From assembly GCA_021737785.1 (NCBI GenBank), contig JAIPDI010000039.1, positions 1 to 52,231 on the forward strand: DNA of 52,231 bases. Reading direction: 5' to 3'. The position numbers were made by a program, and so were the translations under genes. The notes under the pieces are model-generated. The model was not told where the DNA came from. It did no database searches and worked only from the letters and a program-made list of their open reading frames with translations. This DNA is from Deltaproteobacteria bacterium (GTDB taxonomy: Bacteria; Desulfobacterota; DSM-4660; Desulfatiglandales; Desulfatiglandaceae). Shown here piece after piece: positions 2,553 through 34,217 of the stretch; the stretch's first letter is position 1; each line of letters opens with the position of its first letter.

Positions 2553-2570
2553 GGAGCCCTGTCAAGAAAT

Positions 2571-9295: not shown

Positions 9296-9333
9296 CGTCT
9301 TGCTGCCTGCCGGTGCACAGGACAACCGGTTTC

Positions 9334-9849
9334 TCACGGATCACCGGGCTCCGGCGCTTCAATCGATTCAAAGAGCGAGGCCATCTGGGTCTTGAAGCCC
9401 GGCGGCAGCGAGGAGAATTTTTTTTCAGGGAGGGCGACGAATTCGGCCGCGCCCCGGACAAGGAGCCTTCCCTGATGGTCCCTGATTTCTCCCCTTGCCC
9501 GAATTTTGGGGGGAGCGGAGTCGTCCACCAGGCGACCGGTCACGATCAGGGGGGTCCCTACGGCAACATTCCGGATATATTTGATATCCATTTTCCGGGT
9601 CACGAGAAAGGTCTTTTTTGACACCATGACGGCCCATGACATGACCTCGTCGAGGAGCGTGGAGATGATGCCGCCATGGGCAATATCCTCCCATCCCTCA
9701 TGATACTTTCCTAATGTAATGTCCGAGCATACCGCATCCCCGATCCGATAGAATTGCAGGTTGAGCCCGATCGGGTTGTCGGTGCCGCAGGCAAAACAGC
9801 CATGCCCCTGGGGTTTTTGGATATCGATTTTCTTTTCTTCATCCACCAT
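9334..9849 (-). CDS. PaaI-type hotdog acyl-CoA thioesterase
   Basis: 171-residue single-hotdog protein. The central AHGGIISTLLDEVM is the classic PaaI-family helix with the HGG turn that holds the thioester, preceded by CFACGTDNPIGLNLQF, common in this subfamily. It would hydrolyse acyl-CoA to free CoA, possibly as a relief valve for stalled intermediates. It follows the crotonase gene on the same strand with a 108-bp gap and converges on the HADH/ECH gene. Substrate cannot be predicted. Only a purine-rich GAAAGAAAGA precedes the ATG. Confidence 0.85.
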   Translation of the reverse strand: MVDEEKKIDIQKPQGHGCFACGTDNPIGLNLQFYRIGDAVCSDITLGKYHEGWEDIAHGGIISTLLDEVMSWAVMVSKKTFLVTRKMDIKYIRNVAVGTPLIVTGRLVDDSAPPKIRARGEIRDHQGRLLVRGAAEFVALPEKKFSSLPPGFKTQMASLFESIEAPEPGDP

Positions 9850-9957
9850 ATTGTCTTTCTTTCGTCGTCATCATTCACTGGTTCAAGGCTGATGCCCGCA
9901 CAAAAAGTGCTTTTTACATGGATCCAGGGATTGCAGACACAGCGTCTACATCCTCAA

Positions 9958-11717: not shown

Positions 11718-13745
11718 ATGAAAAAATCCATATTTCTTGTTGGCTGTCTGCTTTTTTGTCTTTCGGTTCCATTCCTTTCCGGCTGTGTACACCCGCCTGA
11801 TCATGCTCAATACGTTAAAAACGGAAAAGTCTATGGCCAGGTGCGTGGCACGTTCCGCCATAAGTGGTGGAACTACTATGAGCGGGGCCTTTCGTTTGCC
11901 GATGGCCGGTTCTTCGAGGAGGCCGCCCAGGACCTTAAGCATGCCATCGATAAAAGAGAAACAGATCAGCGCATGGCCAGGACCTATGGGATGCATTTTG
12001 TGGACTATTTTCCTCACAGGGAGCTGGGCGTCGTCTATTACCAGAAAGGCAATATGGAGGCGGCTCAAAAGGAGCTGTCCCTTTCTCTCAGTCAGTATCC
12101 TACCTCAAAGGCCCGGTTTTATCTGGATCGCGTCAGGAAGGGGTTGATGGAAAAGAAGGGCGGCGAGATTGCGCCCCCCCGTCTGACCGTGGATCTGCCT
12201 GAAGGCGATGTCTGGACCCGGGAGGATCCTGTCATGATTTCCGGGAATGTTCGGGACCCGCATTTTGTCTCTGCCGTTAAAATCCAGGGCAGTCCCATAT
12301 TTATGGAAGGTGCCCAGGATCAGATCTTATTCAGTAAACCCCTCCAACTCGATCACGGGCGCCACACAATTCAGGTGGAGGCCGTCAACCTGATGGGCAA
12401 GACCGCAAGCCGGCGCATGGTGATCCATGTGGACCGGCAGGGACCTGTCATCACAATCGAAGACGTGTCCCGTGAGACTGGGTCGTCGTCGCAACAGGGA
12501 CCTACCCTTCGGTGCTCCATATATGATGAGGCAGGCGTGTCTGAGCTGATTCTAAACGGGAGGGCTGTTCCTATTCAAAAGGATCGGGAAGTTCTCTTGA
12601 CAAGGCAGCTCCCGGCGGATTCCCGTGTCGTTGAGATAGTGGCCATTGACCGTCTCGGAAACCGGACATCGGCCCATGTGGATGCCGATATCCCTTCAAC
12701 AGGCGGGAAACCCCTTATGATAGCATGTGCCGGCTCGGATATGCGCGGGTTTTTGATGGCGGGCATTTTCGGCCCCAAAGATAAGGATCCCCCGCGCATC
12801 GTCCTCAAGGGATGGGGTGATTCCGTGGCTGAGACGGTCTATATGGACAGGGTATTTATCGATGGTCATGCAGCGGACGACAGCGCCATCCAAAGCCTCA
12901 TCCTCAATCAGGAACCGATCCTGCGACGGAAGGGGAAACGGATCTTTTTCAATCAGGTGGTGCGCCTCAAAGAAGGAAAGAACACGGTTACAATCGAAGC
13001 TAAGGATGAGGCGGGCAATGTGGCGACCCGGGAACTGATTGTCACGAGGCATATCCCGAAGGCGCTTCAGTTGGCCGAGCGCCTCAGCATGACGGTCCTT
13101 CCGTTCGGTCAGAAAGGAGAGGTTTCCAATGCAAGCCTGTCCTTTCAAAACAATTTGATAGACGCACTGGTCAATCGGAATCGTTTCCGGCTGGTGGAAA
13201 GGCAGAAGCTGGACCTGATCCTTCAGGAGCAGAAACTGAGCCGTTCCAGCCTGATCGACAAAAAGACCGCTCTTGCGTTAGGCAGGCTCACGGCGGCACA
13301 AAGCATTGTCACCGGAGATATCGTCGAGTCCGGCATGGGGATCGAGATCGTGGGTCGCGTGATCGATACTGACACTTCCGAGATTGTGGCTTCTGAAGAT
13401 GTTTACGATGAAGTCAAGGGCCTTGAGGACCTGCAGACCCTGGCCGAGGGAATGGCCATCCGGATTCATCGACGATTCCCCCTGTTGAACGGGACGGTTG
13501 TCCGACAGAAGGGAAAATGGATCTTTACGGATATCGGGGATGACAAGATCGGTCTCCAGGGCAGATTGATCGTCTATCGCGAAGAATTGGTCAAACATCC
13601 TGTAACTGGAAAATTGCTCGGATACGACAATGAAATCATAGGAAGGGCACGCGTGGTGCAGGTCATGCCCGGCATGTCCAAGGCAGAACTCTCAGATGGC
13701 GAACCTGCCTCTGTCAAACCGCTGGACAAGGTGATCAGCCAATAA
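11718..13745 (+). CDS. Lipoprotein with Ig-like modules and CsgG/FlgO-like domain
   Basis: 675 residues. Type II signal peptide with lipobox LSGC (Cys23); Val at +2 suggests outer-membrane sorting. Residues about 45-145 look TPR-like (GLSFADGRFFEEAAQDL, QKGNMEAAQKEL); about 150-445 holds repeated beta-sandwich segments with 'K.NTVTIEA.DEAGN' motifs; about 450-600 is a CsgG/FlgO/FlgT-type domain (LVERQKLDLILQEQKL, LTAAQSIVTGDIV), followed by a small beta domain. CsgG-like domains occur in outer-membrane secretion or flagellar-base lipoproteins. The same domain ends the cyclase-CHAT protein four genes on. AGGAGG fixes the start; the next gene begins 12 bp after the stop. Confidence 0.82.
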   Translation: MKKSIFLVGCLLFCLSVPFLSGCVHPPDHAQYVKNGKVYGQVRGTFRHKWWNYYERGLSFADGRFFEEAAQDLKHAIDKRETDQRMARTYGMHFVDYFPHRELGVVYYQKGNMEAAQKELSLSLSQYPTSKARFYLDRVRKGLMEKKGGEIAPPRLTVDLPEGDVWTREDPVMISGNVRDPHFVSAVKIQGSPIFMEGAQDQILFSKPLQLDHGRHTIQVEAVNLMGKTASRRMVIHVDRQGPVITIEDVSRETGSSSQQGPTLRCSIYDEAGVSELILNGRAVPIQKDREVLLTRQLPADSRVVEIVAIDRLGNRTSAHVDADIPSTGGKPLMIACAGSDMRGFLMAGIFGPKDKDPPRIVLKGWGDSVAETVYMDRVFIDGHAADDSAIQSLILNQEPILRRKGKRIFFNQVVRLKEGKNTVTIEAKDEAGNVATRELIVTRHIPKALQLAERLSMTVLPFGQKGEVSNASLSFQNNLIDALVNRNRFRLVERQKLDLILQEQKLSRSSLIDKKTALALGRLTAAQSIVTGDIVESGMGIEIVGRVIDTDTSEIVASEDVYDEVKGLEDLQTLAEGMAIRIHRRFPLLNGTVVRQKGKWIFTDIGDDKIGLQGRLIVYREELVKHPVTGKLLGYDNEIIGRARVVQVMPGMSKAELSDGEPASVKPLDKVISQ

Positions 13746-13757
13746 GGTGAAGCCCCG

Positions 13758-14363
13758 GTGACGGATTCTCTTCAGAAAGACCTGCGTCTGCTCTCCCGGT
13801 GTCTCGATGGAGACAGGGAGGCGTCCGAGCTTTTTGTTCGACGCTTCTCAGGTCTGATATATTATGCGGTTCGCTATGTGCTCACCTCCAAGTGCATTTC
13901 CTTCGGCCCCGAAGACCTCGAAGATCTCCACAATTCCGTATTCCTCGATCTCTTTGAAAACAAAGGCAGAAAACTGAGCCAGTATCATGGGAAAAACGGT
14001 TGCAGCCTCGCTTCATGGCTCAGGGTAGTGGCCGTGCGTCGGGTACTCAATCATATAAGAGACGGCCATATGCACACCGACCTGCCCCAGGAGAAACAGG
14101 TCCCTTTTGAAAATTTTTCGAGCCACGACCGGGAAGAACTGGGGCCCCTCGCACTCATGGAGCAGGCAGAGCGCGGGCGGTTAGTTCGGGACGCCGTGCA
14201 GTTCCTCTCACCCAGAGATCGTCTATTTATGAAATTATACTTTGAAGACGGCCTCGCCTTGGAAGAGGTGGCCGATACCCTTCGAATTTCCATCCAGAAT
14301 GCCTACACCATCAAACACCGCGCTGTTCAAAGACTCCGCTCGCATTTAAGCCGAGACACATAG
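13758..14363 (+). CDS. Sigma-70 family RNA polymerase sigma factor (ECF-like)
   Basis: 201 residues with region 2 at about 20-100 (FVRRFSGLIYYAVR, then ...SWLRVVAVRRVLNHIRD, the core- and -10-binding helices) and region 4 at about 140-195 (LSPRDRLFMKLYFEDGLAL, HTH with LEEVADTLRIS...YTIKHRAVQRLRSHL). No region 1 or 3, so ECF-like in layout. GTG start with AAGGTG 8 nt upstream, 12 bp after the lipoprotein gene, so the two are co-transcribed. A zinc-finger anti-sigma-like gene follows after a long 438-bp gap. Probably controls genes in this locus; target promoters unknown. Confidence 0.9.
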   Translation: MTDSLQKDLRLLSRCLDGDREASELFVRRFSGLIYYAVRYVLTSKCISFGPEDLEDLHNSVFLDLFENKGRKLSQYHGKNGCSLASWLRVVAVRRVLNHIRDGHMHTDLPQEKQVPFENFSSHDREELGPLALMEQAERGRLVRDAVQFLSPRDRLFMKLYFEDGLALEEVADTLRISIQNAYTIKHRAVQRLRSHLSRDT

Positions 14364-14459
14364 GAACCCTCCCGCTCCTGTGCACCTTTGCTATCGTTTT
14401 TCAAAAACAAAACATGGTGCAAAGACCGACCCCTCAACCTTGAACCCCTGAACCCTTAG

Positions 14460-14695
14460 ATTTTTCCAAACCGTTCATGGGGTCACGAATGAACGATTAT
14501 TCACGTTATACAAGACCCTGAAACGATTCCAAATCACGGTCCTGCAAGCCTGTTTCCCTGTTCGTAGTGACGCCGTGAGGCGTTTTCCGGATGCACCCCG
14601 GCCATGCCCTGACGGGCACACTACAAACTTTACACAAGGGCCCAGAGGGAGGCGCTTCACCCGTGAACGGTTACCATTTTTCCAAACCATTCATG
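14460..14695. repeat. Direct repeat pair flanking a REP-like element
   Basis: A 20-bp sequence (ATTTTTCCAAACC then G or A then TTCATG) occurs at 14460-14479 and 14676-14695 with one mismatch. The first copy overlaps a 7-bp hairpin (CGTTCAT 14472-14478 / ATGAACG 14489-14495). The pair encloses the twin-hairpin element at 14564-14624 and lies between the sigma factor and its anti-sigma-like partner. It could be a duplicated operator or promoter element, or a duplication left by insertion. Confidence 0.5.
14564..14624. repeat. BIME-like twin-hairpin REP element
   Basis: 61-bp element bounded by GTAGTG (14564-14569) and its complement CACTAC (14619-14624). Inside are two GC hairpins: ACGCC-GTGA-GGCGT (14570-14583) and TGCCC-TGAC-GGGCA (14605-14618), each with a 5-bp perfect stem and 4-nt loop. 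This is the layout of bacterial REP doublets mobilised by RAYT transposases. A possible RAYT-type remnant lies at 50509-50691. Confidence 0.65.
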
Positions 14696-14801
14696 TCTTC
14701 TGTAAGAAAACCAAAAAACCTGTGTCTATATGGGTAAAGGGCGGATGAAGCGCCCTGTATTCTTCTGCCCTAAAATGGGCATTCATATCCTGGAGGTCCT
14801 A

Positions 14802-15473
14802 ATGAAAACAGCATGTCCCAACGAAGAAGTGTTCGCGGCCTATCTTGAAGACCTGTTGCCTGAAAGTCAGAGGTCTCATATGGAGGCCCATCTATTCGAG
14901 TGCGACGCATGTTTCAGTGCATTCAGTCTGACGACCGATATGATTAGAGGAGAGGCATCGGCTGCGCTTGAAGCAGCGCCCCCGAAGGTCACTCAATCGG
15001 CATTGGAATTGATCAACAGCCGTGACGCAACAACCTCAGGCGGCCTGCTTCTAAAAAGGATCAGACGCTCGATCAGCGCGCTTCACGCCGGGCTGCTCCG
15101 TCGCCTGCCGTTGCCCATGGGGTCTGAATGGGAGCCTGCGCCCATCCGGGGGAGGCGGGAGGCGGTGCATGCAGACCTGTTTCGCGTTCAAAAGGGCTAT
15201 CGGGAGTTTGATGCCGACATCGAGATTGAGAAGATTGGGGTCAACACGGCCCTGATCCATCTGCGTTTGGTCGCTCGAAACGGCTTCAGCGAACGGATCC
15301 GGGTTACCCTGAAAAGGGGCGACCGGGAGATTTGTTCTTCTCTTTACTGGGGCGGCGATCTGATTTTTGAAGATATTTCTTTCGGGCCCTGCAAACTCGT
15401 GTTCGAGAGGGATGGGGTGGAAATTGGCGTCTATCTGTTTCATATCAAGGAGACCGGCAATGGGAAAAAATGA
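14802..15473 (+). CDS. Zinc-finger anti-sigma-factor-like protein
   Basis: 223 residues from ATG 14802, which has GGAGGT 4 nt upstream; an in-frame ATG at 14730 is less likely. The N-terminus is a ZAS/zf-HC2 motif: Cys5, His30, Cys34 and Cys37 (HLFECDAC). There is no membrane segment, so a soluble anti-sigma is implied. The C-terminal half (about 125-220) is predicted beta-sandwich (FDADIEIEKIGVNTALIHL, RIRVTLKRGDREI). It follows the sigma factor and overlaps the cyclase-CHAT gene by 14 nt, so the latter pair is translationally coupled. Binding to the sigma factor at 13758 is inferred from position and motif. Confidence 0.78.
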   Translation: MKTACPNEEVFAAYLEDLLPESQRSHMEAHLFECDACFSAFSLTTDMIRGEASAALEAAPPKVTQSALELINSRDATTSGGLLLKRIRRSISALHAGLLRRLPLPMGSEWEPAPIRGRREAVHADLFRVQKGYREFDADIEIEKIGVNTALIHLRLVARNGFSERIRVTLKRGDREICSSLYWGGDLIFEDISFGPCKLVFERDGVEIGVYLFHIKETGNGKK

Positions 15474-18400
15474 CCTCAAGGGCGAAGACGACCGTCCCAG
15501 GACCATCGAGCAGTTTCTCAGGGAACGCGAACGTATCGACAGCATTCTCCAGAAGGAGTTCAAGAAGGAGACTACCATCCTGTTTACGGATATCTGCGAT
15601 TATACATCCTATACGGAGAAAATGGGGGACCTCTCCAGCCGGGCGATGCTCCAGAAACACAATGATATCGTCCTCCCTGTCGTTTCTACGTATGAGGGTG
15701 TGGTTATCAAGACCATCGGTGATGCGGTCATGGCTACCTTTCCGAACTCCCTGGCCGCAGTAAAGGCCGCTTCGGACATTCAGAAGGGTCTGCACCAGCA
15801 TAATCGCATTGCGGGCACGGGTGACAGGATCCATGTCAAGGTCGGGATCAACACCGGCGAGGCCCTGGTGGACGGGGGCGACGTGTTCGGCGATGCAGTG
15901 AATTTGGCTGCGCGGATACAATCCAAGGCAGGAAAGGATGAGATACTCGTCTCCAAGAGGGTCTATGACGATGTGTGCGGCAGCGATGATGTGCTCTGCA
16001 GGATACATGAAAAGGTCCAGGTAAAGGGTAAGACCGAGCCCGTTCAGTTATACCGGGTGGTCTGGAAAGACGAAGATGTGGCGCCCGAGACCGAACCCAA
16101 GGTGAGGGCCGGGGGCGGCGTGACGCACCGCGAGGCCATACGTCCACTGGAGGTCCTTTATCTCGAGGTGGCCAGGGAAGGAGATCGCATCAAGCTCTGC
16201 GCATATGAGCAGAAGCCGGGCGAAACGAGCACCATTCAACACTACGAGGAGACGGATGTTTCCATGGACCGGGTCAAGACCCGGTGCCATGAAATGGTGG
16301 AGACCCTCAACAAGGTCAATCGCCGGGGCCTGGTCTCGCGTGAAAATTTAAAACGCCTGAGGGAGATCGGACAGGTTTTTTCGGATGAATTGTTTACCCT
16401 GAACGTCAAGGAAAAGCTCAAGAACTCCAAGGCCGACCACATGATCCTGAATCTGGACGACCAACTGGTCCATGTGCCCTGGGAACTCCTCTATGACGGT
16501 CAGCAGTTTCTCTGCCAGCGGTTCAGTATGGGTCGTCTGGTGAAGACTCGACAGCCGGTAGGCGCAAGGCGGAGCCGGGTCCTTGCCCGACCTCTGAAGA
16601 TGCTGGTCCTGGCCGACCCCGGAGGAGACCTGGAGGGCGCCTATACGGAAGGCACCCGGATTCGCGACACCATGGATTCGAAAAAGGACTTTGTCAATGC
16701 CACATTACGTTCCGGCAACATCACTCCGGACTTTATCAAAAAAAAGATCCGGAATTTTGATGTGGTCCATTTTGCCGGACATTCTGATTACGATCCGCAG
16801 CGTCCGGGCGAGAGCGGGTGGCGTCTCACCGGCGGGAATCTCAAAACTGAAGACATCGCCAGGATGACCGGCGCGAGCGCCATGCCGGCCCTCATCTTTT
16901 CCAATGCGTGTCAGTCGGGCCGAACCGAGGAATGGGGTCTCAGAGAGTCCTTTCAGGAAGAGATCTTCGGACTGGCCAATGTATTTCTCCTCGCAGGGGT
17001 CAAGCATTTTGTGGGGACCTTCTGGGAAATCATGGACGAACCCAGCAGCCGGTTTGCCATGGAATTCTATCAATGCTTCATGTCGGGCATGACCATGGGC
17101 GAGGCGGTTCGTGAGGCCCGGCATGCCCTGATTCGGGAATACGGTGAGGAGAACATCGTATGGGCGAGCTATCTCCTTTATGGAGATCCGACCTCCAACT
17201 ATATGGACCAGATCATGGCGGCCGAGCCTCGAAAAGAACCGAGACCATCTGTGACTGTTCTTCAAAAGGGACAGGTGCTGGGCGAGGTGCGGTCAAGGGA
17301 AGAACCCTTTGATTTTTCAAAGAGGGAGCCGACAAAAAGGAAATGGCCCTGGATGGCCCTTGCCGCTGGGGTGCTGCTGTTATCGAGTTTTGTGCTCTGG
17401 GGTTACCCCGGTTTGTTGCGAAAAGGGACGGGCGCATACGAAGAGGCGGCCCTGGCCTACTACCACCAGGGGGCCTTTGACGAGGCCCTCAGCGCCTGCA
17501 CGTCCATAGAGGCCAGGGACCCGCACCTCAGTCTGGCCTACCTGATTCGGGGAGATGTTTATTTCAGGCGGGGGGACCTGGATGCGGCGAAGGCCGCCTA
17601 TCAGAAGGCGATTGCGGCCAAAAAAGGGGCCGGGGTTCAGAAGGCCGGGGCCTATATCGGCCTGGGCCGCATTGCCTCCATTCGAAAAGAGACGGACAAG
17701 GCCCTTGGATATTATGAATCGGCCGCCAGGGTGGCCCCTGAAAGCGGCGTTGCCTATCTGTCTCAGGCCGTCCTTTTCGAGGACAAGGGCGAATACGGAA
17801 AGGCCCTGGAACTCCTGGAAAAGGCCCGGACCCATGCTCCGCAGGACCAGGCCCTGGTGGCGCTGACCAACGAGACACGCAAGAAGGCTGATCTGGCGAT
17901 CAACGAAGAGCGGCAGGCCCGCATTGACAGAATGGTCCAGGAACTGGTCGAGACCATGAAGTCGCCCCCCGCTCCCGTCCCTTCGGACGGCTGGACCTCC
18001 ACTCCCCTGACCCTGTGGGTGATGGATGTCGAGACTGATGGATACTCGCTTCAGGAGGGAGAGGAAAAACTCTTAGTCGCCGGCATTCAGGACCAGCTCC
18101 TTCAACACTGCCGGGCGCGTCTGGTGGAACGGGGCCTCCTGGACAAGCTCCTCGCAGAATTGAAGCTGGGGACATCCCAGCTGGTGGACAAACAGACCGC
18201 CCTGTCCCTGGGCAGAATCCTGGCCGCAAGGCTGATCCTGACGGGTCAGGTGGTCTATTCCGGCCCCCAGACCCAGGTCTCCATGCGCCTGATCGAAACC
18301 GAAACCGGGCGCATTACCGCTGCAGTGAACGAAACCTTTGGCAGCGCGGTTCCCGTATCTATAGTATCGGAAGAAGTATCCAAAAAAGTGATGGAAAAGG

Positions 18401-18642
18401 TGAATGAAAACTACCCCCTTCGGGGAAAAATATCGACAGTGGAAGGGAATGAAGTCACGTTGAACATCGGGCAGATGGCCGGGACTCGCAAGGGGCAGAA
18501 ATACAATGTGATAGACCAGGATGCGGATCTGGAGGTGATATCCGATCAGCTCGAGACCGCCACTGCAAAAATTGTCAAAGGGAACACGTCATTAGTAGAA
18601 GGGATGCGCGTGGAGGCCAGCAACGGCGCTCCTAAGGATTGA
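15460..18642 (+). CDS. Class III nucleotidyl cyclase - CHAT protease - TM - TPR - CsgG-like fusion
   Basis: 1060 residues. (1) Cyclase domain about 35-215 with metal Asp44 and Asp88, purine-selecting Lys84 and Asp145 (adenylate type), Asn148 and Arg152. (2) CHAT caspase-fold domain about 320-590 with His441 (HFAGH) and Cys484 (NACQSG). (3) Transmembrane helix about 627-650. (4) TPRs about 660-820 (ALAYYHQGAFDEALSA). (5) CsgG/FlgO-like domain from about 850 to the end, resembling that of the lipoprotein at 11718. Cyclase and protease should be cytoplasmic, TPR and CsgG parts periplasmic. ATG 15460 has AAGGAG and overlaps the anti-sigma-like gene; a longer reading from 15367 lacks support. cAMP output and protease targets are unknown. 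Confidence 0.9.
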   Translation: MGKNDLKGEDDRPRTIEQFLRERERIDSILQKEFKKETTILFTDICDYTSYTEKMGDLSSRAMLQKHNDIVLPVVSTYEGVVIKTIGDAVMATFPNSLAAVKAASDIQKGLHQHNRIAGTGDRIHVKVGINTGEALVDGGDVFGDAVNLAARIQSKAGKDEILVSKRVYDDVCGSDDVLCRIHEKVQVKGKTEPVQLYRVVWKDEDVAPETEPKVRAGGGVTHREAIRPLEVLYLEVAREGDRIKLCAYEQKPGETSTIQHYEETDVSMDRVKTRCHEMVETLNKVNRRGLVSRENLKRLREIGQVFSDELFTLNVKEKLKNSKADHMILNLDDQLVHVPWELLYDGQQFLCQRFSMGRLVKTRQPVGARRSRVLARPLKMLVLADPGGDLEGAYTEGTRIRDTMDSKKDFVNATLRSGNITPDFIKKKIRNFDVVHFAGHSDYDPQRPGESGWRLTGGNLKTEDIARMTGASAMPALIFSNACQSGRTEEWGLRESFQEEIFGLANVFLLAGVKHFVGTFWEIMDEPSSRFAMEFYQCFMSGMTMGEAVREARHALIREYGEENIVWASYLLYGDPTSNYMDQIMAAEPRKEPRPSVTVLQKGQVLGEVRSREEPFDFSKREPTKRKWPWMALAAGVLLLSSFVLWGYPGLLRKGTGAYEEAALAYYHQGAFDEALSACTSIEARDPHLSLAYLIRGDVYFRRGDLDAAKAAYQKAIAAKKGAGVQKAGAYIGLGRIASIRKETDKALGYYESAARVAPESGVAYLSQAVLFEDKGEYGKALELLEKARTHAPQDQALVALTNETRKKADLAINEERQARIDRMVQELVETMKSPPAPVPSDGWTSTPLTLWVMDVETDGYSLQEGEEKLLVAGIQDQLLQHCRARLVERGLLDKLLAELKLGTSQLVDKQTALSLGRILAARLILTGQVVYSGPQTQVSMRLIETETGRITAAVNETFGSAVPVSIVSEEVSKKVMEKVNENYPLRGKISTVEGNEVTLNIGQMAGTRKGQKYNVIDQDADLEVISDQLETATAKIVKGNTSLVEGMRVEASNGAPKD

Positions 18643-18789: not shown

Positions 18790-18877
18790 TTGCTTTCAGC
18801 TTCAGGGCTTTGAGCTTCAAGCTTTTGTGACCGTTTGCCTTTGGAGTAATCAAGTTGACACCATGCGGGAGGAAGAA

Positions 18878-21800
18878 ATGGAAAAGATTTCTGTCCGACG
18901 ATTCATCATTCCCATTTTTTTCAGCTTTGTACTTCTCGCCATTCTTTCTATCACTGGATTGGCTGCAGAAGCATACATGTTCGAGCGGATGTGGCCGGTC
19001 TTGGATCAGCCGTGGTATTTCATGCAACCTTCTGGGATCGCAACTGACAGAGAGGGCAATATATATGTGGCAGATACCGGTAACGACCGCATCCAGAAGT
19101 TCAGTTCAACGGGTGGTTTTATCACAAAGTGGGGGACTAAAGGCCCCGGTGATGGTGAATTCAGCTATCCATATGATATCGCCATAGACGGTCAAGGAAA
19201 CGTATATGTGGCGGATGCCGCTAACAACCGCATCCAAAAGTTCAGTTCAGCGGGTGAGTTTATCACGAAATGGGGAAATGAGGGTAGTGCTAATGGAGAA
19301 TTCAGCCATCCGTACGATATCGCCATAGACGATCAAGGCAACGTGTATGTGGCTGAATATATGAATAATCGAGTTCAGAAATTCACCTCTTCGGGAGCGT
19401 TTATCCTGAAGTGGGGCAGTACGGGCAGCGCTGATGGACAGTTTAGCGGTCCGCATGGTATTGCCATAGACGATCAAGGGAACGTGTATGTGGCTGAATA
19501 TATGAATAATCGAGTTCAGAAATTCACCTCTTCAGGGCTGTTTATCGAAAAGTGGGGGAATCCGGGCAGCGGTGATGGGGAGTTGCATAGTCCCACCGGT
19601 ATCACATTAGACAGCCAAGGTAACATTTATGTAGCTGATTTTGGTAACGATCGTATCCAAAAGTTCAACTCCTCAGGAGTATTTATCACGAAGTGGGGGA
19701 GTGAAGGCAGTGGTGATGGACAGTTTAATGGCACGGTCGATGTCGCCTTAGACAACCAGGGAAACATCTATGTGGCGGACTATCTTAACGATCGAATTCA
19801 GAAATTTGGCCCTTCAGGGGCGTTTTTTGCCAAATGGTCGAGCGGGGGTAGTGGCGATGGGGAGTTCTATTCACCCACTGACATCGCCCCAGATGGTCAG
19901 GAGAATATGTATGTAGCGGATAGAGGGAACCATCGAATCCAGAAGTTCGACTCATCAGGGGCGTTTATTACCAAGTGGGGGAGTAAAGGCAGCGGTGATG
20001 GACAGTTTAGTCATCCGAGTGATGTCGCTTTAGATAACCAGGGGAACATCTATGTGGCGGATGCATATAACCATCGAATCCAGAAGTTCACTTCAACAGG
20101 GGTGTTTATCACGAAGTGGGGTAGTGAAGGCAACAGTAACGGACAGTTTAATTCACCAGGAGGGATTTCAATAGACGAGCAGGGGAACGTCTATGTGGCG
20201 GATACGTATAACCATCGAATCCAGAAGTTCACTTCAACAGGGGTGTTTATAACGAAGTGGGGAAGTAGAGGCAGCAGTAATGGGCAGCTTAATACACCAG
20301 GAGGGATTTCAATAGACGAGCAGGGCAACGTCTATGTGGCGGATTCATGGAATTATCGAATCCAGAAGTTCGACTCATCAGGGGCGTTTATTACCAAGTG
20401 GGGAAGCGGCGGTATCGGAGATGGACAGTTTAGTAGCCCTAGTGATGTCTCTTTAGATAACCAAGGGAACGTCTATGTGGTCGAAATATGGAATAATCGC
20501 ATCCAAAAGTTCAGTTTGTCAGGGGCATTTATGACGAAATTCGGCTCGTTCGGCTCTGAACCTGGTCTCCTGAACTGCCCCGTTGGCCTCACTGTAACTA
20601 GCAGTGGAAAAGTATATGTTGCAGATCAGCGTAATAATCGAATTCAGGTTTTCGGCCCATCCACCTCAACAATCACCGATAGGAAGGCGATCGTTGTTGC
20701 GGGGAGCGGCCCTTATGCTACCAACGAACTATGGGATGCGACACAGATGTGCGCCAATTATGCGTATCGGGCACTGACCTACCAGGGTTACACGCGGGGT
20801 ACCATCTATTACCTGTCTGCTGATACGGATCTGGACCTGGATAATGACGGGTACCCGGACGTTGATGCGGATGCAACGAATGCCAATCTTCAGTATGCCA
20901 TTACATCCTGGGCTCAAGATGCGGACAACCTGTTGCTCTATATGGTAGGCCACGGGGGCGAGGGGACCTTCCAGATGGGACAGTTCGAGTTGCTGAATGC
21001 CACTGAACTGGATGCCTGGCTGGATGCAACCCAGCAGACCATCCCGGATTTTGTTACCCTTGTGTATGACGGGTGCCATTCCGGGAGTTTTGTGCCCTAT
21101 CTGATTCCGCCTGCGGGAAAAACTAGGATTCTTGCAACCAGTGCGGACGTTAATGAACCGGCGGTGTTCCAGGCGGATGGGGGGCTTTCATTCGGCTACC
21201 AGTTCTTTTCGTACCTGTTTAACGGGGGCAGCTTTTATGAGTCCTTTGTTCATGGGCAGAAGACCGTACAAGGGGCCTATGATTACAAGCAGACGCCCGT
21301 GATCGAGGGGAATGGAAACGGTATCGGCAACGAAAAGGCGGATAAGGAGATAGCCCAGGCCATCAAACTCGGTAACGAAACCAAATCCGCCGGCGACATC
21401 CCCCAGATCCAAAGCGTATCTCCCGCCCAGACCCTGGCCGAAGGAGTGACCTCTGCGGTCATTTATGCGCAAAAGGTGATGGACGTCGACGGCATCCAGG
21501 AGGTGTTTGCGGTCATCAAACCCCCGGATTATTCCAGCGGGTTTTCGGACAACCCGGTCACCGACCTTCCGACCATCCATCTGAAGGATACCGGGAACAA
21601 CACCTACAGCGGCACCTACAAAGGGTTTACGGTTGAAGGGACCTACAACATCGCTGTCTTTGCCCGCGACAGAAAAGGCACGCTGTCCCTTCCGGCTCAG
21701 ACCTCTGTAACGGTATCCGTAACCACAGACTGCCTCCCTGTTGCAGCTGACCTCAGCATCCGCGTTCCCTGCGCAGAATACATCGGCAATCCATACGGGT

Positions 21801-22045
21801 TTACGCTGGATTCCTATCGCAATCCCGACGACCCTGCCGGGCTTTACTGGAAGCTGGTCCTGGCCACTCTCACGACTGGACAAGGCGAGAACTGCCTTCT
21901 TATCGGCAGCGATCTGAGCATGCCGATACCGTGCGCATCCTATAATGGCGCACAATATGGCTTTACCCTGAACCTTTATCATAACCCCTATGATCCGTCA
22001 GGGCTGTACTGGAAGATGGATGTGAGCACACTGGTGGTGAAGTAG
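18878..22045 (+). CDS. Secreted NHL-repeat / C13-type caspase-fold protein, paralog 1
   Basis: 1055 residues. Sec signal peptide (about 1-31, hydrophobic core then GLAAEA); 12 NHL repeats of 47 residues (about 50-595; e.g. DQGNVYVAEYMNNRVQKF), enough for two six-bladed propellers; a clan-CD peptidase domain of C13/legumain type (about 600-820) with His692 (VGHGG) and Cys733 (DGCHSGSF); an Ig-like domain; and two copies of a roughly 52-residue C-terminal module (about 951-1055; VPCAEY...GLYWK). GGAGG 5 nt before ATG 18878 supports this start. Blades 3/4 and 8/9/10 are nearly identical in DNA, showing recent internal duplication. Probably a periplasmic or extracellular protease; substrate unknown. 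Confidence 0.85.
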   Translation: MEKISVRRFIIPIFFSFVLLAILSITGLAAEAYMFERMWPVLDQPWYFMQPSGIATDREGNIYVADTGNDRIQKFSSTGGFITKWGTKGPGDGEFSYPYDIAIDGQGNVYVADAANNRIQKFSSAGEFITKWGNEGSANGEFSHPYDIAIDDQGNVYVAEYMNNRVQKFTSSGAFILKWGSTGSADGQFSGPHGIAIDDQGNVYVAEYMNNRVQKFTSSGLFIEKWGNPGSGDGELHSPTGITLDSQGNIYVADFGNDRIQKFNSSGVFITKWGSEGSGDGQFNGTVDVALDNQGNIYVADYLNDRIQKFGPSGAFFAKWSSGGSGDGEFYSPTDIAPDGQENMYVADRGNHRIQKFDSSGAFITKWGSKGSGDGQFSHPSDVALDNQGNIYVADAYNHRIQKFTSTGVFITKWGSEGNSNGQFNSPGGISIDEQGNVYVADTYNHRIQKFTSTGVFITKWGSRGSSNGQLNTPGGISIDEQGNVYVADSWNYRIQKFDSSGAFITKWGSGGIGDGQFSSPSDVSLDNQGNVYVVEIWNNRIQKFSLSGAFMTKFGSFGSEPGLLNCPVGLTVTSSGKVYVADQRNNRIQVFGPSTSTITDRKAIVVAGSGPYATNELWDATQMCANYAYRALTYQGYTRGTIYYLSADTDLDLDNDGYPDVDADATNANLQYAITSWAQDADNLLLYMVGHGGEGTFQMGQFELLNATELDAWLDATQQTIPDFVTLVYDGCHSGSFVPYLIPPAGKTRILATSADVNEPAVFQADGGLSFGYQFFSYLFNGGSFYESFVHGQKTVQGAYDYKQTPVIEGNGNGIGNEKADKEIAQAIKLGNETKSAGDIPQIQSVSPAQTLAEGVTSAVIYAQKVMDVDGIQEVFAVIKPPDYSSGFSDNPVTDLPTIHLKDTGNNTYSGTYKGFTVEGTYNIAVFARDRKGTLSLPAQTSVTVSVTTDCLPVAADLSIRVPCAEYIGNPYGFTLDSYRNPDDPAGLYWKLVLATLTTGQGENCLLIGSDLSMPIPCASYNGAQYGFTLNLYHNPYDPSGLYWKMDVSTLVVK

Positions 22046-23408: not shown

Positions 23409-23511
23409 ATTTTCACAACCAATGAAATAGTCGGATATTGAGTTCGAAAGGCCCGGCAGGTTTGAGCGTATAAATCTTCTTTACCGTTTTGCGATGTGCA
23501 GGAGGTGCGAT

Positions 23512-26500
23512 ATGAAATCGATGGCAACATATTTTATTAAATCGGTGGCGTGCCTCATTTGCCTATTCCTGAGTGTGGACTTGGGGCCTGCCTTTTCATT
23601 CTCCGAAGAGACCTACACATATGAACGGATGTGGCCCGAGATGCAACAGCCCTGGTATTTTTGCAAACCATCGGGAATAGCCATTGATAAGACAGGAAAT
23701 ATCTATTTGTCGGAAATGGGCGGACACTGCATTCAAAAATTGACATCAGGAGGACAATTCATAAAAAGGTGGGGAAAGGAAGGTGTAAATGATGGGGAGT
23801 TCGGCTGTCCTCTTGGGCTGGCTATAAGTGGAAATGAAAGCGTTTATGTGCTTGATTCTGCGCACAACCGGATCCAGAAATTTTCGACAGAGGGAGAGTT
23901 TGTTGCCAAATGGGGGAGTGAGGGGGCTGACGACGGACAATTTCAGTTCTATACCGGGTTAGATTCGCAAAAGCCATTCAATTTGATTGGAATAGCTGTA
24001 GATGCGGATGGATATGTGTACGTCGCAGATAGAGGCAACTGCCGGATTCAGAAATTCACATCTGACGGTCAGTTTATCGGAAAATGGGGGAGTCAGGGAA
24101 CAGCGGACGGGCAGTTCAGTGATCCTTCAGGGATAGGCATCGACGGAAGCGGAAATATCTATGTAGCGGATTATCATGCCAACCGGATACAGAAATTCAC
24201 ATCCGAGGGACAGTTTATCACGAAATGGGGCAGCCAGGGAAGCGGTGATGGGCAGTTCAACCAACCTGCAGGCTTAATCATAGATACGAACAGCAATGTC
24301 TATGTGTCGGATGCAGGCAACAATCGGATCCAAAAGTTCACTCAAGCCGGACAGTTTATTGACAAATGGGTTGTGGGGGGGATGCCGACTGGAATAGCTG
24401 CAGACGCAACCGGCCACATCTATGTGACGGACTCGGGAGCGGAACAGATACGGATCTATTCATCAACAGGCGAGTCAATTTCGAATTGGGGACCTGGAGA
24501 CGGGGATGAGGACCTGAGAGGGCCAGGCGGCGTGGCAGTTGACCAGGGCGGAAGTGTCCTCGTAGCGGATTCCGGGCATTGCGAGATCAAAAAATTTTCA
24601 TGGGACGGTGGTTTTATTTCCAAGATCGGAGGGTGTGGTTTAGAGGACGGCCGATTTACTTGGCCAAGTGGGATCGCCATAGCCACAAGCGGAAATTTTT
24701 ACGTGGTTGATACAGGCAATGGAAGAATTCAGAAATTTGACCCAGCCGGTCGATTTGTTGGCAAATGGGGGAGTGAAGGCTCTGATGATGGAGAATTCAG
24801 ATCCCCAGGGTCAGTAGCGGTTGATGGAGACGAAAATGTTTATGTGGTTGACGTTGGCAACCACCGCATCCAGAAGTTTACGTCTGACGGCCAGTTTATC
24901 ACCAAGTGGGGCAGTGAGGGAGCGGGGGCTGGGCAGTTTTTTTATCCGCGAGGAATAGCGATACATGAAAACACATACGTTTATGTTGCCGAGCCGTATA
25001 GCAACAGGGTTCAGAAATTTACCTTAGATGGGCAGTATGTGGAATTGCCGCCCCCGGGGTTTGATAACTGGGAGTTTGATGGCCCTTCGGATGTGGCTGT
25101 TGATGGTGACGGGAATCTGTATGTACTGAATTCGGGCGGACAAATTTTGAAGTTTACCTCAACTTGGGAGTTTATTGCACAGTTTGGTGAATTCGGATCA
25201 AATCCAGGTCAACTGAAAGCACCGAATGGCATAACTATTGCGCCTGACGGCAGGGTCTATGTGGCAGACAGCGGTAATCATCGTATTCAGGTCTTCAGCA
25301 AAGAGGGTGCACCGCTTGAAGGGAGCAATAAGGCCATCATCGTTGCCGGGGGTGGCCCCTATACAGGCAACACCCTGTGGGGCGCCACCGAGATGTGCGC
25401 CAACTATGCCTACCGGGCGCTTACCTATCAAGGCTATAACAAACAGACGATCTATTACATTTCCTCTGATACCGATCTTGATTTAGACGGCAACGGCAAG
25501 CTGGATGATGTGGATGCCGATGCCGCCAATGCCAACCTGCAATATGCCATTCAAACCTGGGCTTCAGACGCGGACACCCTCCTTATCTACATGGTGGATC
25601 ACGGTGGCAATGGGACCTTCCGCATGAGCGGCACCGAATTGCTGTATGCTACGGAACTGGACGGGTGGCTGGATACCCTCCAGCAGAGCCTTCCCGGTCA
25701 TGTGACCCTTATCTATGACGCCTGTGAATCCGGCAGCTTCCTTCCCTACCTCCTGCCTCCCTCTGGAAAAGAGCGTTTTGTGGCCGCCAGCACCTCACCG
25801 GGCGAAGAATCCATCTTTGTGGGTAATGGGACGGTGTCATTTTCGTTCCTCTTCTGGGGCCACATGTTCAATGGGGAGAGTTTCTATGATTCCTTTGTCA
25901 ATGCACAAAAGAGTGTGAGCACCACATACAAGCAGACCTGCCAACTGGATGCCAATGGCAACGGAATCGGCAATGAAAAAGAGGACAAGGAACTCGCAAA
26001 TCAGCTCCGGATCGGGAATGAAACCAAGTCGGCCGGGGATGTGCCGGTGATCGGCACGGTGTCGCCTGTCCAGTTTCTGCAGACCGGGACATCTGCCTCC
26101 ATCTATGCAGACCAGGTGATCGACGCGGACGGCATCAGCCGGGTATGGGCTGTCATCACGCCCCCCGGATATACATCAGGAGGAACAGATACCCCGGTGA
26201 CAGACCTGCCGACGCTTGATCTCAACTCCGTGAGCAATAATCGGTATGAGGGGACCTATACCAATTTTGCCACACCCGGCGCCTACAATCTCGCCGTATT
26301 TGCCATGGACCGAAAAGGGGTGCTGTCTCTGCCGGTCCAGACCAGTGTGACCGTGTCTGGAACTGGCGGCTGCCTGACTGTAGCAAGTGACCTCAGTATC
26401 CAGGTCCCCTGTGCCGAGTATTTGGGCAATCCATACGGATACCTTCTCGATTTCTACCGCCATCCGGACGATCCATCCGGCTTCTACTGGAAGCTGATAT

Positions 26501-26685
26501 TGTCCACTCTTACGACCGGGACGGGCACGAACTGCATTCCCATTGCCTCGGACCTGAGTGTGCCCATTTCTTGTGTATCCTATAATGGCGTGCAATATGG
26601 ATTCACCCTTGATTTTTACCCGATTCCCTATGATCCGTCGGGGCTGTACTGGAAGATGGATCTGAATACCTTGATGGTGAAGTAG
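23512..26685 (+). CDS. Secreted NHL-repeat / C13-type caspase-fold protein, paralog 2
   Basis: 1057 residues with the same layout as paralog 1: signal peptide (core IKSVACLICLFLSV), 12 NHL repeats (about 50-600; more divergent between blades), C13-type domain with His697 (VDHGGNG) and Cys738 (DACESGSF) 41 residues apart as in the other copies, an Ig-like domain (about 840-945) and two C-terminal VPCAEY/GLYWK modules (about 952-1057). ATG 23512 has AGGAGG at ideal spacing; the in-frame ATG at 23494 overlaps that site and was rejected. The catalytic domain is closer to paralog 3 than to paralog 1. Probable secreted cysteine peptidase. Confidence 0.85.
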   Translation: MKSMATYFIKSVACLICLFLSVDLGPAFSFSEETYTYERMWPEMQQPWYFCKPSGIAIDKTGNIYLSEMGGHCIQKLTSGGQFIKRWGKEGVNDGEFGCPLGLAISGNESVYVLDSAHNRIQKFSTEGEFVAKWGSEGADDGQFQFYTGLDSQKPFNLIGIAVDADGYVYVADRGNCRIQKFTSDGQFIGKWGSQGTADGQFSDPSGIGIDGSGNIYVADYHANRIQKFTSEGQFITKWGSQGSGDGQFNQPAGLIIDTNSNVYVSDAGNNRIQKFTQAGQFIDKWVVGGMPTGIAADATGHIYVTDSGAEQIRIYSSTGESISNWGPGDGDEDLRGPGGVAVDQGGSVLVADSGHCEIKKFSWDGGFISKIGGCGLEDGRFTWPSGIAIATSGNFYVVDTGNGRIQKFDPAGRFVGKWGSEGSDDGEFRSPGSVAVDGDENVYVVDVGNHRIQKFTSDGQFITKWGSEGAGAGQFFYPRGIAIHENTYVYVAEPYSNRVQKFTLDGQYVELPPPGFDNWEFDGPSDVAVDGDGNLYVLNSGGQILKFTSTWEFIAQFGEFGSNPGQLKAPNGITIAPDGRVYVADSGNHRIQVFSKEGAPLEGSNKAIIVAGGGPYTGNTLWGATEMCANYAYRALTYQGYNKQTIYYISSDTDLDLDGNGKLDDVDADAANANLQYAIQTWASDADTLLIYMVDHGGNGTFRMSGTELLYATELDGWLDTLQQSLPGHVTLIYDACESGSFLPYLLPPSGKERFVAASTSPGEESIFVGNGTVSFSFLFWGHMFNGESFYDSFVNAQKSVSTTYKQTCQLDANGNGIGNEKEDKELANQLRIGNETKSAGDVPVIGTVSPVQFLQTGTSASIYADQVIDADGISRVWAVITPPGYTSGGTDTPVTDLPTLDLNSVSNNRYEGTYTNFATPGAYNLAVFAMDRKGVLSLPVQTSVTVSGTGGCLTVASDLSIQVPCAEYLGNPYGYLLDFYRHPDDPSGFYWKLILSTLTTGTGTNCIPIASDLSVPISCVSYNGVQYGFTLDFYPIPYDPSGLYWKMDLNTLMVK

Positions 26686-27924: not shown

Positions 27925-30900
27925 GTGAAAAAGACGACCCTCTCGTGGTTCATGATGGCGTTGTTGAGCCTGATCATTCAACCCTTCCTTTCGGCCAGGA
28001 CATTGGCTGAAGAGACCTATAAATTCGAGCGCATGTGGCCTAACTTGCAGCAGCCGTGGTATTTTTATTGGCCGCTGGGTGTTGCGGTGGGCCCGAGCGG
28101 CTGCGTATATGTAGCGGAAGCCGGGGGCAACTGTGTCGTGAAACTGGATTCAAACGGGTCTCTGATTACGAAATGGGGTGGACCAGGCAGCACAGACGGG
28201 GAGTTTAGTTATCCTGAGGGCATTGCTGTCGACGCCTCAGGTAATGTCTATGTTTCAGAAAGGTACAACCATCGCATTCAAAAATTCAACGCCAACGGAC
28301 AGTTCATATCGAAAATGGGCAGCTATGGCAGCGGGCCGGGTCAATTTGATGGCCCCGGCGGCCTTGCCTTTGATTCCAAAGGAAATATGTATGTGACGGA
28401 TCGGAACAATCACCGCATTCAGAAATTCGATGCCAATGGCCGGTTTCTTCTCCAATGGGGGAGTGAGGGGAGTGGAGAAGGACAGTTCCTCAATCCCGTC
28501 TATATTGCCATAGACAGTAAGGATAATGTGTATGTGGGCGAGCAGGATTCCTATCCCAATTATCATGTGCAGAAATTTTCCTCGGACGGTCAGTTTATAA
28601 CCAAATGGGGGCCGGAAAAGTGGGTTTATGACAATTATAAGAATTTTAACTGGTATGCCGGGATCGGGATTGATAAGGATGATTATGTCTACGTGGCCTG
28701 GAGACCCAATCTGGATAAGTTTACTTCTGACGGGCAGCTGGTGTCGACTTTGAGCGGGCAGGAGTATGGAGGGGGCGGGAGTGTGGCCTTTCACGGGGAT
28801 CGTTTATATATAGGGAGCTATACGGGTGTCGCTTCGGTTTCTTTGAAGGGTGAGTTCCTGGAGTGGTGGGGTTCAAGTTATTTGCAAACGGAAGAAAAGG
28901 GCAATAGGATGAACTGGCCCGTGGGGGTAACGACGGACGGAGAGGGAAATGTATATGTCGTGGAATACGGCGCCAACTTGGCAAAATTTGATTCAGAAGG
29001 GGAACTGATCCAAAGATGGAGTGCGACTCTGGGTGATACCATGGGGAGCCCCTTGGATGTGGCCGTAGATAAGGACGGAAATATTTACCTGTCAATGGTT
29101 GAACATGTTCAAAAGTGGTCTGCGACCGGCCGACTTCTAAGTAAATTCGGGGAAAAAGGGATCGGTGACGGGCAATTCACCTGGTGCTCCGGATTGGCGC
29201 TCGATTTAAACTCAAACCTGTATGTCGTAGACGCCTGGAATCAACGCATACAAAAATTCGATTCAGACGGGAATTTCATTCTCAAATGGGGCAGCGCCGG
29301 GACCGGAGATGGACAATTTAATTTCACTTCAGGTTACCTGTTCGATATTGCCTTTGATAACTTCGGCAGCGTTTATGTGGCTGATACGGGCAATCAACGA
29401 ATTCAGAAGTTTACCGCTGACGGGCAATTTATAAAAAAGTGGCCGATTCGTACCGGGCAAGAAGGGTTCGGCTCACCCACAGGCGTAGCTGTCGATGGTG
29501 AAGGCAATGTATATGTGGTTGATAAAGGGAATTCTGTGATTCAGAAATACACCTCGGAAGGGGTCTTTTTGGCGGAATTCGGAAGTTGGGGCACGAATCC
29601 GGGCCAGATGCGAGATCCCGAGGGAATAACCGTAGATCCTACCAGTGAAAAGGTATATGTGACGGATTACGGTAACAACCGTGTACTCGTATTTAGCAAA
29701 GAGGGTTCACCTCCTTTTACAGGACCTGCCAAGGCCATTATCGTGGCGGGAGGCGGCCCTTATGCGGGCAATAACCTCTGGGACGCCACCCAGATGTGCG
29801 CCAACTATGCGTACCGAGCATTGACCTACCAGGGATATACCAAGGACACCATCTACTATCTGTCGGCTGACATGGATCTGGATCTGGATGGCAACGGCAA
29901 ATTGGATGACGTGGATGCCGATGCCACCAACGCCAACCTACAGTACGCCATCAATACTTGGGCTGAGGATGCAAATGACCTCCTCATCTATATGGTGGAC
30001 CACGGCGGAAATGGCACCTTCCGAATGAGTGGCACTGAACTCCTCTATGCCACGGAACTGGACGGGTGGCTGGATACCCTGCAACAGACCCTTCACGGCC
30101 ATGTAACTCTCATATATGACGCCTGCGAGTCCGGGAGCTTTCTTCCCTACCTCTTACCCCCTTCCGGCAAGCAACGTTACGTCGCTGCCAGCACCTCTCC
30201 GGGCGAAGAATCCATCTTTGTGGGGAATGGGACGGTATCGTTCTCCTTTCTGTTCTGGGGTCATATGTTCAATGGGGAGAGCTTCTACAATTCGTTCGTC
30301 AATGCACAAAAGAGTGTGAGCACCACCTACAGCCAGACCTGCCAACTGGATGCCAACGGAAATGGCATCGGCAATGAAAAAGAGGATAAGGATATGGCAA
30401 GTCAGCTCCGGATCGGGAATGAGACCAAGTCCGCCGGGGATGTGCCGGTCATCGGAGGGGTGTCGCCTGCCCAGTCATTGAGCAGCGGGACCTCAGCCTC
30501 CATCTATGCAGACCAGGTGATCGATGCGGATGGCATCAGCCGGGTATGGGCCGTGATCACGCACCCCGACTATACCCCCGGTGGATCGGATACCCCGGTG
30601 ACCGATCTGCCGACCCTCGATCTCACCTCCGCGGGCAATAGCCGGTATGAAGGGACATACACCGGTTTCACCATGCCCGGCGCCTACAATATCGCCATAT
30701 TTGCCATGGACCGAAAAGGTGTGCTGTCTCTGCCGGTTCAGACCAGTGTAACCATGTCTGCAACTGGCGGCTGCCTGACCGTAGCAAGTGACCTTAGTAT
30801 CAAGGTCCCCTGTGCCGAGTATTTAGGGGTACCCATACGGTTTCACTCTGGCCTTTTACCGAAACCCCGATGACCCATCAGGCTTTTATTGGAACCTGGT

Positions 30901-32885: not shown

Positions 32886-34217
32886 ATGAAAACAACACTG
32901 GCAAAAGGAATCGGAGCGATTGCAGTGCTGGTTTTCGGCGTCCTCATGTTTGTATCGTTGGTATGGGGTGCGGATCCCTTTGCTCGCCTTGAGATCCCTT
33001 CGTCTCCAAACCCGGTGGGCAGCGGGGCCAGGGCGTTGGGCATGGGAGGTGCGTTTATTGCCATTGCTGACGATGCCACAGCCGCATCTTGGAACCCAGG
33101 CGGCCTGATTCAGCTCGAAACGCCTGAGATATCCGCTGTAGGAGCCTACGTACATCGGGGGGAGGCCAATTCCTTTGGAAAGCTTCCGGAGGCTTCAGGG
33201 TCCCAGTCTGTGGACGAATGGAACCTCAATTACCTCAGCGGCGCCTATCCGTTCGAGGCTTTGGGACGGAACATGATCGTGTCCTTAAATTATCAGCGTC
33301 TGTACGATTTTAACCGTGAGTGGGATTTTGGCTATCGTGCAGCGGACGGTCCGGTAAATTTGAATTATGATCAGGAAGGGGGCCTCTATGCCCTGGGCCT
33401 GGCGTACAGCGTCGAGATCGTCCCTTCGTTATCAGCGGGCGTTACATTCAACTACTGGGGAGATTTTTTCTCCGACCAGAGCTGGACCCAGAAATATGAT
33501 TTAAACAGAAAACTGATGGTCGGCGGCCATTCTGTTTCCTATGTCGGCAACAAGAGGGAGAAGTACTCATTTTCCGGCTTCAACGCAACTATTGGGTTTT
33601 TATGGAACATTATGGGCGAGTGGACGGTAGGGGGCGTTTTCAAAACCCCATTTACAGCCGATATTACACATAAAATCAATGGGTTTGACGCAACTTCCTC
33701 GCCAACCGATACCAGTCTCAACACCTACAAGTCTTTTGACTATCGCTATGACGAGAAGCTGGAGATGCCCATGAGCTATGGCCTGGGAGTGGCCCACCGT
33801 TTCAGCGATGCCTTTACCATGGCCTTTGATCTTTACCGGACTCACTGGGATGATTTTGTGCACACGCACCAGAATGGAGGAAAAACCTCACCAATCAGCG
33901 GCAAGCCAATCGATCAGTCGGATATCGACCCCACCACCTGGGCCCGCCTGGGGGCCGAATACCTCTTTATTCGCGACAGCATGGTGATCCCCGTTCGTGC
34001 AGGACTCTTTTACGATCCGGCCCCGGCTGAAGGCTCTTCAGACAAATACTATGGCTGTTCTGTCGGTTCCGGGATCGCCTACGGCCCGTATGTATTCGAC
34101 ATTTCCTACCAGTTCCGTTTCGGCAACAACGTAGGCAAATCCAGCCTCGAAGGCGTTGGTTTCTCCCAGGATGTGCGGGAGCACACCTTCTATTTCTCGA
34201 TGGTGTATCATTTTTAG
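32886..34217 (+). CDS. OmpP1/FadL/TodX-family outer-membrane transporter
   Basis: 443 residues with a signal peptide (cleavage after SLVWG-A), then the FadL hatch-region pattern GSGARALGMGGAFIAIADD and ATAASWNPGGL, followed by amphipathic strands and the C-terminal aromatic SMVYHF typical of outer-membrane barrels. The family imports long-chain fatty acids or other hydrophobics, which fits the beta-oxidation genes nearby. GGAGGAG upstream of the ATG. Preceded on the same strand by the PPC-protein gene (53-bp gap). Confidence 0.9.
   Translation: MKTTLAKGIGAIAVLVFGVLMFVSLVWGADPFARLEIPSSPNPVGSGARALGMGGAFIAIADDATAASWNPGGLIQLETPEISAVGAYVHRGEANSFGKLPEASGSQSVDEWNLNYLSGAYPFEALGRNMIVSLNYQRLYDFNREWDFGYRAADGPVNLNYDQEGGLYALGLAYSVEIVPSLSAGVTFNYWGDFFSDQSWTQKYDLNRKLMVGGHSVSYVGNKREKYSFSGFNATIGFLWNIMGEWTVGGVFKTPFTADITHKINGFDATSSPTDTSLNTYKSFDYRYDEKLEMPMSYGLGVAHRFSDAFTMAFDLYRTHWDDFVHTHQNGGKTSPISGKPIDQSDIDPTTWARLGAEYLFIRDSMVIPVRAGLFYDPAPAEGSSDKYYGCSVGSGIAYGPYVFDISYQFRFGNNVGKSSLEGVGFSQDVREHTFYFSMVYHF

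Follow-up and report, generated by a model that had tools for sequence, protein, structure and literature searches.

Gene content and layout of the locus

The window, i.e. the whole stretch of DNA that was analysed (52,231 nucleotides), is the entire contig C39 of a 5.3 Mb genome. A preliminary description, made from the sequence alone, had correctly located four genes on one strand, namely those for a lipoprotein of the CsgG type, a sigma factor of the ECF class, a zf-HC2 protein and a fusion protein. The locus extends beyond these four genes, up to position 34217, with genes for NHL/C13-like secreted proteins followed by one for a PorV-like barrel. The features are as follows (evidence in brackets).

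11718..13745, +: lipoprotein with LSGC lipobox, TPR-like part, Ig-like domains (Glucodextran_B/Big_13) and C-terminal CsgG/LpoB domain (Pfam; homologs)
13758..14363, +: ECF sigma factor of 201 aa with regions 2 and 4, GTG start (profiles)
14802..15473 (alternative start 14730), +: candidate anti-sigma factor of the zf-HC2/ZAS type, soluble, with a C-terminal Ig-like domain (profiles, model)
14814..14912, +: ZAS zinc motif, Cys5 and His30-x3-Cys34-x2-Cys37 (invariant in 21/21)
15147..15149, +: Arg116 codon in the linker between ZAS and Ig-like domains, putative CHAT cleavage site (conservation, model)
15460..18642, +: cyclase-CHAT-TM-TPR-CsgG fusion, 1060 aa (profiles, model)
15553..16074, +: class III nucleotide cyclase domain with D44, K84, D88, D145, N148 and R152 (Pfam, residues, model)
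16096..17199, +: CHAT protease region, separase/Csx29-like fold; His441 codon at 16780, Cys484 codon at 16909 (Pfam, residues, model)
17350..17406, +: transmembrane segment (hydropathy)
17437..18009, +: TPR repeats, predicted periplasmic (Pfam)
18058..18525, +: CsgG/LpoB-like domain, predicted periplasmic (Pfam)
18827..22045, +: secreted protein with NHL beta-propeller and C13-like (clan CD) parts, a candidate for an output or a partner (Pfam; profile matches)
23494..26685, +: second NHL and C13-like protein
27925..30873, +: third NHL and C13-like protein
32886..34217, +: PorV/BamG/FadL-like outer-membrane beta-barrel (family present at 19 loci, counting this one)

The fusion gene (ATG 15460) overlaps the 3' end of the zf-HC2 gene by 14 bp, a layout that is typical of translational coupling. 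The arrangement of the locus as a whole is not due to chance, as it recurs across many genera. Upstream of the operon, at position 11461, there is a sigma70-like promoter match (TTGACA-17-TATCCT; match to the consensus only). For the anti-sigma candidate the start at ATG 14802 (223 aa) is likelier than the alternative that yields 247 aa, because it is preceded by a GGAGG site. The 438-bp gap between the sigma and ZAS genes (14364-14801) probably contains an insertion, since the corresponding gap measures 66 bp in the nearest relative (G033) and that of the window harbours two near-identical 20-mers, 216 bp apart. A DDE transposase gene (DUF4372/DDE_Tnp_1; 22086-23291, reverse strand) lies between the first and second NHL-C13 genes.

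A membrane-spanning CHAT protein

Searches with Pfam, NCBIfam and PDB profiles back every domain of the four genes. Pfam recognises CHAT (3e-36), Guanylate_cyc (5e-17), TPR and LpoB/CsgG domains in the fusion protein, the CHAT domain being PF12770 of clan CD (125.7 bits versus a curated cut-off of 24). The six cyclase residues and the CHAT pair His441/Cys484 that had been named at the outset are all found at those very positions. Among the relatives, the CHAT His is present in 24/24 and the Cys in 23/24 sequences, with the complete dyad in 23/24. Residues 1-614 were modelled with a pLDDT of 79 and a pTM of 0.80, and in this model the CHAT region (213-580) fits both separase (5fby, with Z 24.3 over 312 residues) and Csx29 (7y9x, with Z 24.1 over 313 residues). 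The loop past the catalytic Cys (484-502) has low model confidence, which may reflect an inactive state. In separase, which cleaves its substrates behind an Arg, an Asp is located in S1, and the invariant Asp526 of the fusion protein may correspond to this residue.

A single transmembrane stretch (residues about 631-649) separates CHAT from the TPR repeats. In the window protein its mean hydropathy is 1.68, weaker than in most relatives. A positive-inside count over 21 relatives gave 83 K/R on the CHAT side versus 49 on the TPR side, an excess that favours a cytoplasmic location of the cyclase and CHAT, with the TPR and CsgG-like end predicted to be periplasmic. This layout agrees with the earlier placement of the cyclase and CHAT across the membrane from the TPR and CsgG-like domains.

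The sigma factor and its candidate anti-sigma factor

The sigma factor matches TIGR02937 (sigma70-ECF) with 70.2 bits versus a cut-off of 42.9 and consists of regions 2 and 4 only, region 2 scoring below its own Pfam cut-off. In the case of the neighbouring protein the zf-HC2 profile score is barely over the cut-off, and there are matches to the profiles RsiW (3e-5) and ChrR (1e-3); its zinc motif Hx3Cx2C (with Cys5) is invariant in all 21 sequences. The model of this protein (pLDDT 82) has ZAS helices at 8-49 and 61-74, a further helix that runs to 101, and a linker of low confidence at 102-118 (residues 102-116 have a pLDDT <50); the Ig-like sandwich starts at 119.

Within the linker, Arg116 is the sole nearly invariant column (19/21; missing in G474/G475) and is flanked by columns of high entropy. 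A preference for basic residues is common among clan CD proteases. Arg116 is therefore a candidate for the CHAT cut site, being a conserved residue of this basic type where a disordered stretch connects the sigma-binding part with the folded tail, and we regard the assignment as doubtful; the residue may instead be structural, at the border of the first sandwich strand.

Three related arrangements were encountered. At locus L131 (8856-18520) a sigma-ZAS pair of the same family, with the ZAS linker sequence ALRSS, has downstream of it, in place of CHAT, two large repeat proteins that are secreted and contain MopE, beta-helix and FGE-sulfatase domains. At L067 (11546-16162, reverse strand) a 1538-aa frame with a C-terminal ECF sigma domain lies beside a weak ZAS match. 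Residues 7-41 of PDB 8rot chain B, a solved 991-aa CHAT-domain protein, show a very weak match to the ZAS profile (E 0.49), so that CHAT may there be fused to an N-terminal zinc finger of the anti-sigma kind.

Recurrent linkage of the sigma/anti-sigma pair to CHAT

We scanned 395 genomes of the phylum, 85 of the order, 17 of the class of G071 and 140 of the class of G198, and the public genomes once, and neighbourhoods were read with profiles made from the window proteins. This yielded 18 cyclase-CHAT fusion loci and a similar number of CHAT loci without cyclase, among the latter L034 of Desulfonema magnum, a relative that can be cultured. The locus recurs in the Desulfobacterota (within the order in 7 of 85 genomes), and the sole match outside the phylum, from the public-genome scan, lies on a short contig of the Nitrospinia (L033). 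Linkage of the fused form was counted over the 17 loci with enough upstream DNA, L033 being left out.

The ZAS gene adjoins CHAT at 8/17 cyclase-CHAT loci and 13/17 CHAT-only loci, and is adjacent in none of the three cyclase-TM loci without CHAT (L057, L058, L069), where it should be kept in mind that the loci are related by descent and are not independent trials. Sigma and ZAS genes are found together directly upstream of CHAT in 21/34 sampled CHAT-TM loci. The ZAS and CHAT genes usually overlap or lie within about 100 bp, the spacing being 380 bp at one locus with a truncated CHAT frame. The co-occurrence that the preliminary description had put forward as a check is thus found in both forms of the locus, and the 13/17 CHAT-only versus 0/3 CHAT-less loci imply that the sigma/anti-sigma pair tracks CHAT better than it tracks the cyclase.

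The linkage on which that description had staked its reading does recur, but the pair has also been lost repeatedly: 9/17 fused loci are without an adjacent pair, nearly all with the CHAT dyad kept (intact without the pair in G314, G042/G078, G026, G160 and G446). Because CHAT residues stay intact after several such losses, the sigma/ZAS pair is not the only partner of CHAT. A whole-genome search recovered no full-length ZAS ortholog in G314, G294, G042, G026, G255, G160 or G446, some of these genomes being incomplete (G042, like G078, is only 60-70% complete), and in G077 the pair is present, unlinked to CHAT, beside secreted repeat proteins. A CHAT tree of 39 rows, with many forks open, requires at least 7 changes for the cyclase and at least 8 for the ZAS linkage; the cyclase and the sigma/ZAS pair are therefore modules that move, while the CHAT-TM or TM-TPR-CsgG frame stays constant.

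The shared site next to recJ is informative. G071 and G034 carry sigma, ZAS, cyclase-CHAT, barrel and lipoprotein genes there. In G294 the sigma/ZAS pair is absent and the fusion gene is split over three frames, and in G388 the pair is likewise absent and the gene at this site encodes a CHAT-less cyclase-TM-TPR-CsgG protein. This pattern is the expected outcome if the sigma/ZAS pair serves CHAT. At two other loci (L051, 10916-19899; L111, 10927-15687) two or three more TPR-CHAT genes stand in tandem downstream of the CHAT-TM gene.

The same data bear on a different explanation, namely that the pair only drives expression of the operon, switched by zinc or thiol redox or by a ligand of the Ig-like domain, while the CHAT protein is the output and acts on other substrates (itself or host proteins). 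The cysteines of ZAS are invariant (21/21), as in redox-sensing RsrA-type factors, CHAT is retained where the pair is gone, and the pair is unlinked in G077, all of which would fit. Nevertheless, the absence of the pair from the CHAT-less variants (0/3) would be unexpected if it merely drove expression of the membrane sensor, and the operon in the window has the sigma70-like match (consensus only), whereas no self-control motif was found in three related genomes, in which no pair of regions upstream of the operon, barrel and NHL genes shared an ECF promoter motif beyond shuffles. We consider this explanation rather unlikely.

The cyclase as an optional module

The window protein scores 62.5 bits with the cyclase profile PF00211, has the full DKDDNR residue set, and its model fits the class III cyclase Ma1120 (Z about 27). 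Judged by these residues the cyclase is probably active. Lys84 and Asp145 suggest ATP as the substrate, although Lys84, which specifies the base, has given way to other residues in the three fused proteins nearest to that of the window (D in G033, D in G450, N in G446), and the chances that the product is cAMP seem slightly better than even. All six residues are retained in 11/17 fused proteins and changed in 6/17, while the cyclases of G026, G314 and L033 are degenerate at sites other than Lys84. Since the residues are lost in these six, nearest relatives included, the cyclase is not essential to the system. Widespread loss of active-site residues had been named beforehand as evidence against the original reading; the CHAT dyad withstands this (23/24), the cyclase set less so (11/17).

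In family f8 (G042, G005) cNMP-binding proteins adjoin the system, one type being a kinase-cNMP-binding fusion, and with these proteins next door a cyclic-nucleotide messenger that is read locally is suggested for this family. At L045 a cNMP-binding protein (2501-3217) and a Ser/Thr kinase-cNMP-binding fusion (8681-10117) flank a cyclase-CHAT/lipoprotein locus without sigma/ZAS.

One could therefore see the cyclase as the main output, with CHAT as a regulator that processes the protein and with the cyclic nucleotide acting on cNMP-binding proteins, in line with the neighbours of the system in G042 (both types) and G005 (the kinase type) and with the existence of CHAT-less cyclase forms (G350, G388). 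Yet half of the CHAT-TM loci are without cyclase, its residues have changed in the nearest fused relatives of the window, and neither in the window nor at most loci was a cNMP-binding gene recognised next to the system, which renders this view improbable.

Partners in the cell envelope

The lipoprotein combines a CsgG domain (1e-12) with Ig-like domains according to Pfam and has homologs in at least 16 loci. The barrel is a further core part, its family accompanying the system at 19 loci (counting the window). Together with the predicted periplasmic TPR-CsgG end, barrel and lipoprotein could plausibly form an outer-membrane sensor. Between the fusion and the barrel the window has the three secreted NHL plus C13-like proteins; the profile of the first one has matches that adjoin the fusion gene in G042 and lie 1.4 kb away in G450, the latter match falling in BACON/Ig-like parts (Pfam). 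At L059 (8784-10736) and L060 (8284-10296) a TPR-CsgG protein is fused to a thioredoxin/peroxiredoxin-like N-terminus and adjoins a Ser/Thr kinase and a small CsgG lipoprotein.

The cyclase and CHAT could also be toxic effectors that serve in conflict or cell suicide and respond to phage or to envelope damage, on the lines of Pycsar or TPR-CHAT defence. This would accord with weak PADLOC matches to PycC (33.8 bits, best 5.6e-9, no cut-off given) and BovA and with the patchy distribution (7/85 genomes of the order), but is likewise improbable, as the partners that are conserved, barrel and lipoprotein, belong to the envelope, the neighbourhood has no recognised effector of the PycTM kind, and the recJ site common to several genera is not a defence island.

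A proposed mechanism and its relation to known systems

To the observed gene content, topology signals, intact active sites, folds and recurrent linkage we add a proposed mechanism, to which we give nearly even chances: a CRISPR-independent, envelope-facing module in which CHAT cleaves the ZAS anti-sigma factor and frees the sigma factor. The barrel, the CsgG-type lipoprotein and the periplasmic TPR-CsgG end would sense a putative envelope or surface cue, and clustering via the membrane helix would switch on the cytoplasmic CHAT, which would cut the soluble ZAS protein in its flexible linker, with the position after Arg116 as the candidate site, and thereby release the ECF sigma factor. In some lineages an intact cyclase would, from the same clustered state, produce a cyclic nucleotide as a second output. 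Cleavage is plausible because of the topology, the linkage and the precedent of Csx29/Csx30 (PMC10028731), the predicted topology placing CHAT and its proposed substrate together in the cytoplasm. The initial reading, in which envelope sensing switches on the cyclase or CHAT, finds support in part: the checks set for it, on linkage and on the CHAT dyad, mostly favour it, while the incomplete conservation of the cyclase set (11/17) and the frequent absence of the pair weaken it.

In the DegS/RseA/RpoE and RsiW systems, envelope signals likewise lead to proteolysis of an anti-sigma factor, which there is a membrane-spanning protein and the target of proteases of the DegS/RseP type. In the window the anti-sigma candidate is soluble and the protease membrane-spanning.

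With the CalpL/CalpT/CalpS system of type III CRISPR, in which an oligomerisation-activated protease cuts an anti-sigma factor to free an ECF sigma factor (PMC11417357), the proposed module would have this logic in common. CalpL, however, is a Lon protease with a SAVED sensor of cA4 and a cytoplasmic nucleic-acid trigger, whereas the present system is CHAT-based and, as proposed, envelope-facing. In ECF54 the sigma gene lies near CHAT-domain genes and proteolytic control was proposed, and the group is described without an anti-sigma factor (PMC8999054); the ZAS gene adjacent at 21 CHAT-TM loci sets our system apart from that description.

The closest likeness is to the type III-E Craspase of Desulfonema ishimotonii, where a CHAT protease of the same fold is likewise found beside an ECF sigma factor and a protein inhibitor: Csx29 cleaves Csx30, the inhibitor of CASP-sigma, in a flexible loop, which relieves the inhibition (PMC10028731). 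Csx29, a TPR-CHAT protein, is soluble and depends on Cas7-11 and target RNA for its activation, whereas the CHAT protein of the window is membrane-spanning with a periplasmic sensor and a cyclase, and the inhibitor would be the ZAS-Ig protein instead of Csx30. The fusion protein falls outside the Csx29 family (NCBIfam NF041237: 11.9 bits versus a cut-off of 300), and Cas7-11, Csx30 and Csx31 were not recognised among the neighbours as annotated. As proposed, the system works like Csx29/Csx30/CASP-sigma but differs from it, being a CHAT-linked control of a sigma factor to which an envelope sensor and, optionally, a cyclase have been joined. The most specific form of the proposal, a CRISPR-independent cellular counterpart of Craspase in which a transmembrane CHAT cuts a zinc anti-sigma factor at a linker Arg with a fused cyclase acting in parallel, is put forward tentatively. 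In the open-access literature we found no description of a cyclase-CHAT fusion with a sigma factor.

If the proposal holds, CHAT-controlled release of sigma factors would not be specific to CRISPR but part of bacterial envelope signalling, including in the phylum that gave the characterised Craspase. It would provide a CHAT protease from nature for which both the substrate and the cut site are predicted, a single polypeptide would link the periplasm to cytoplasmic proteolysis, and cyclase fusions of this kind would gain a testable role.
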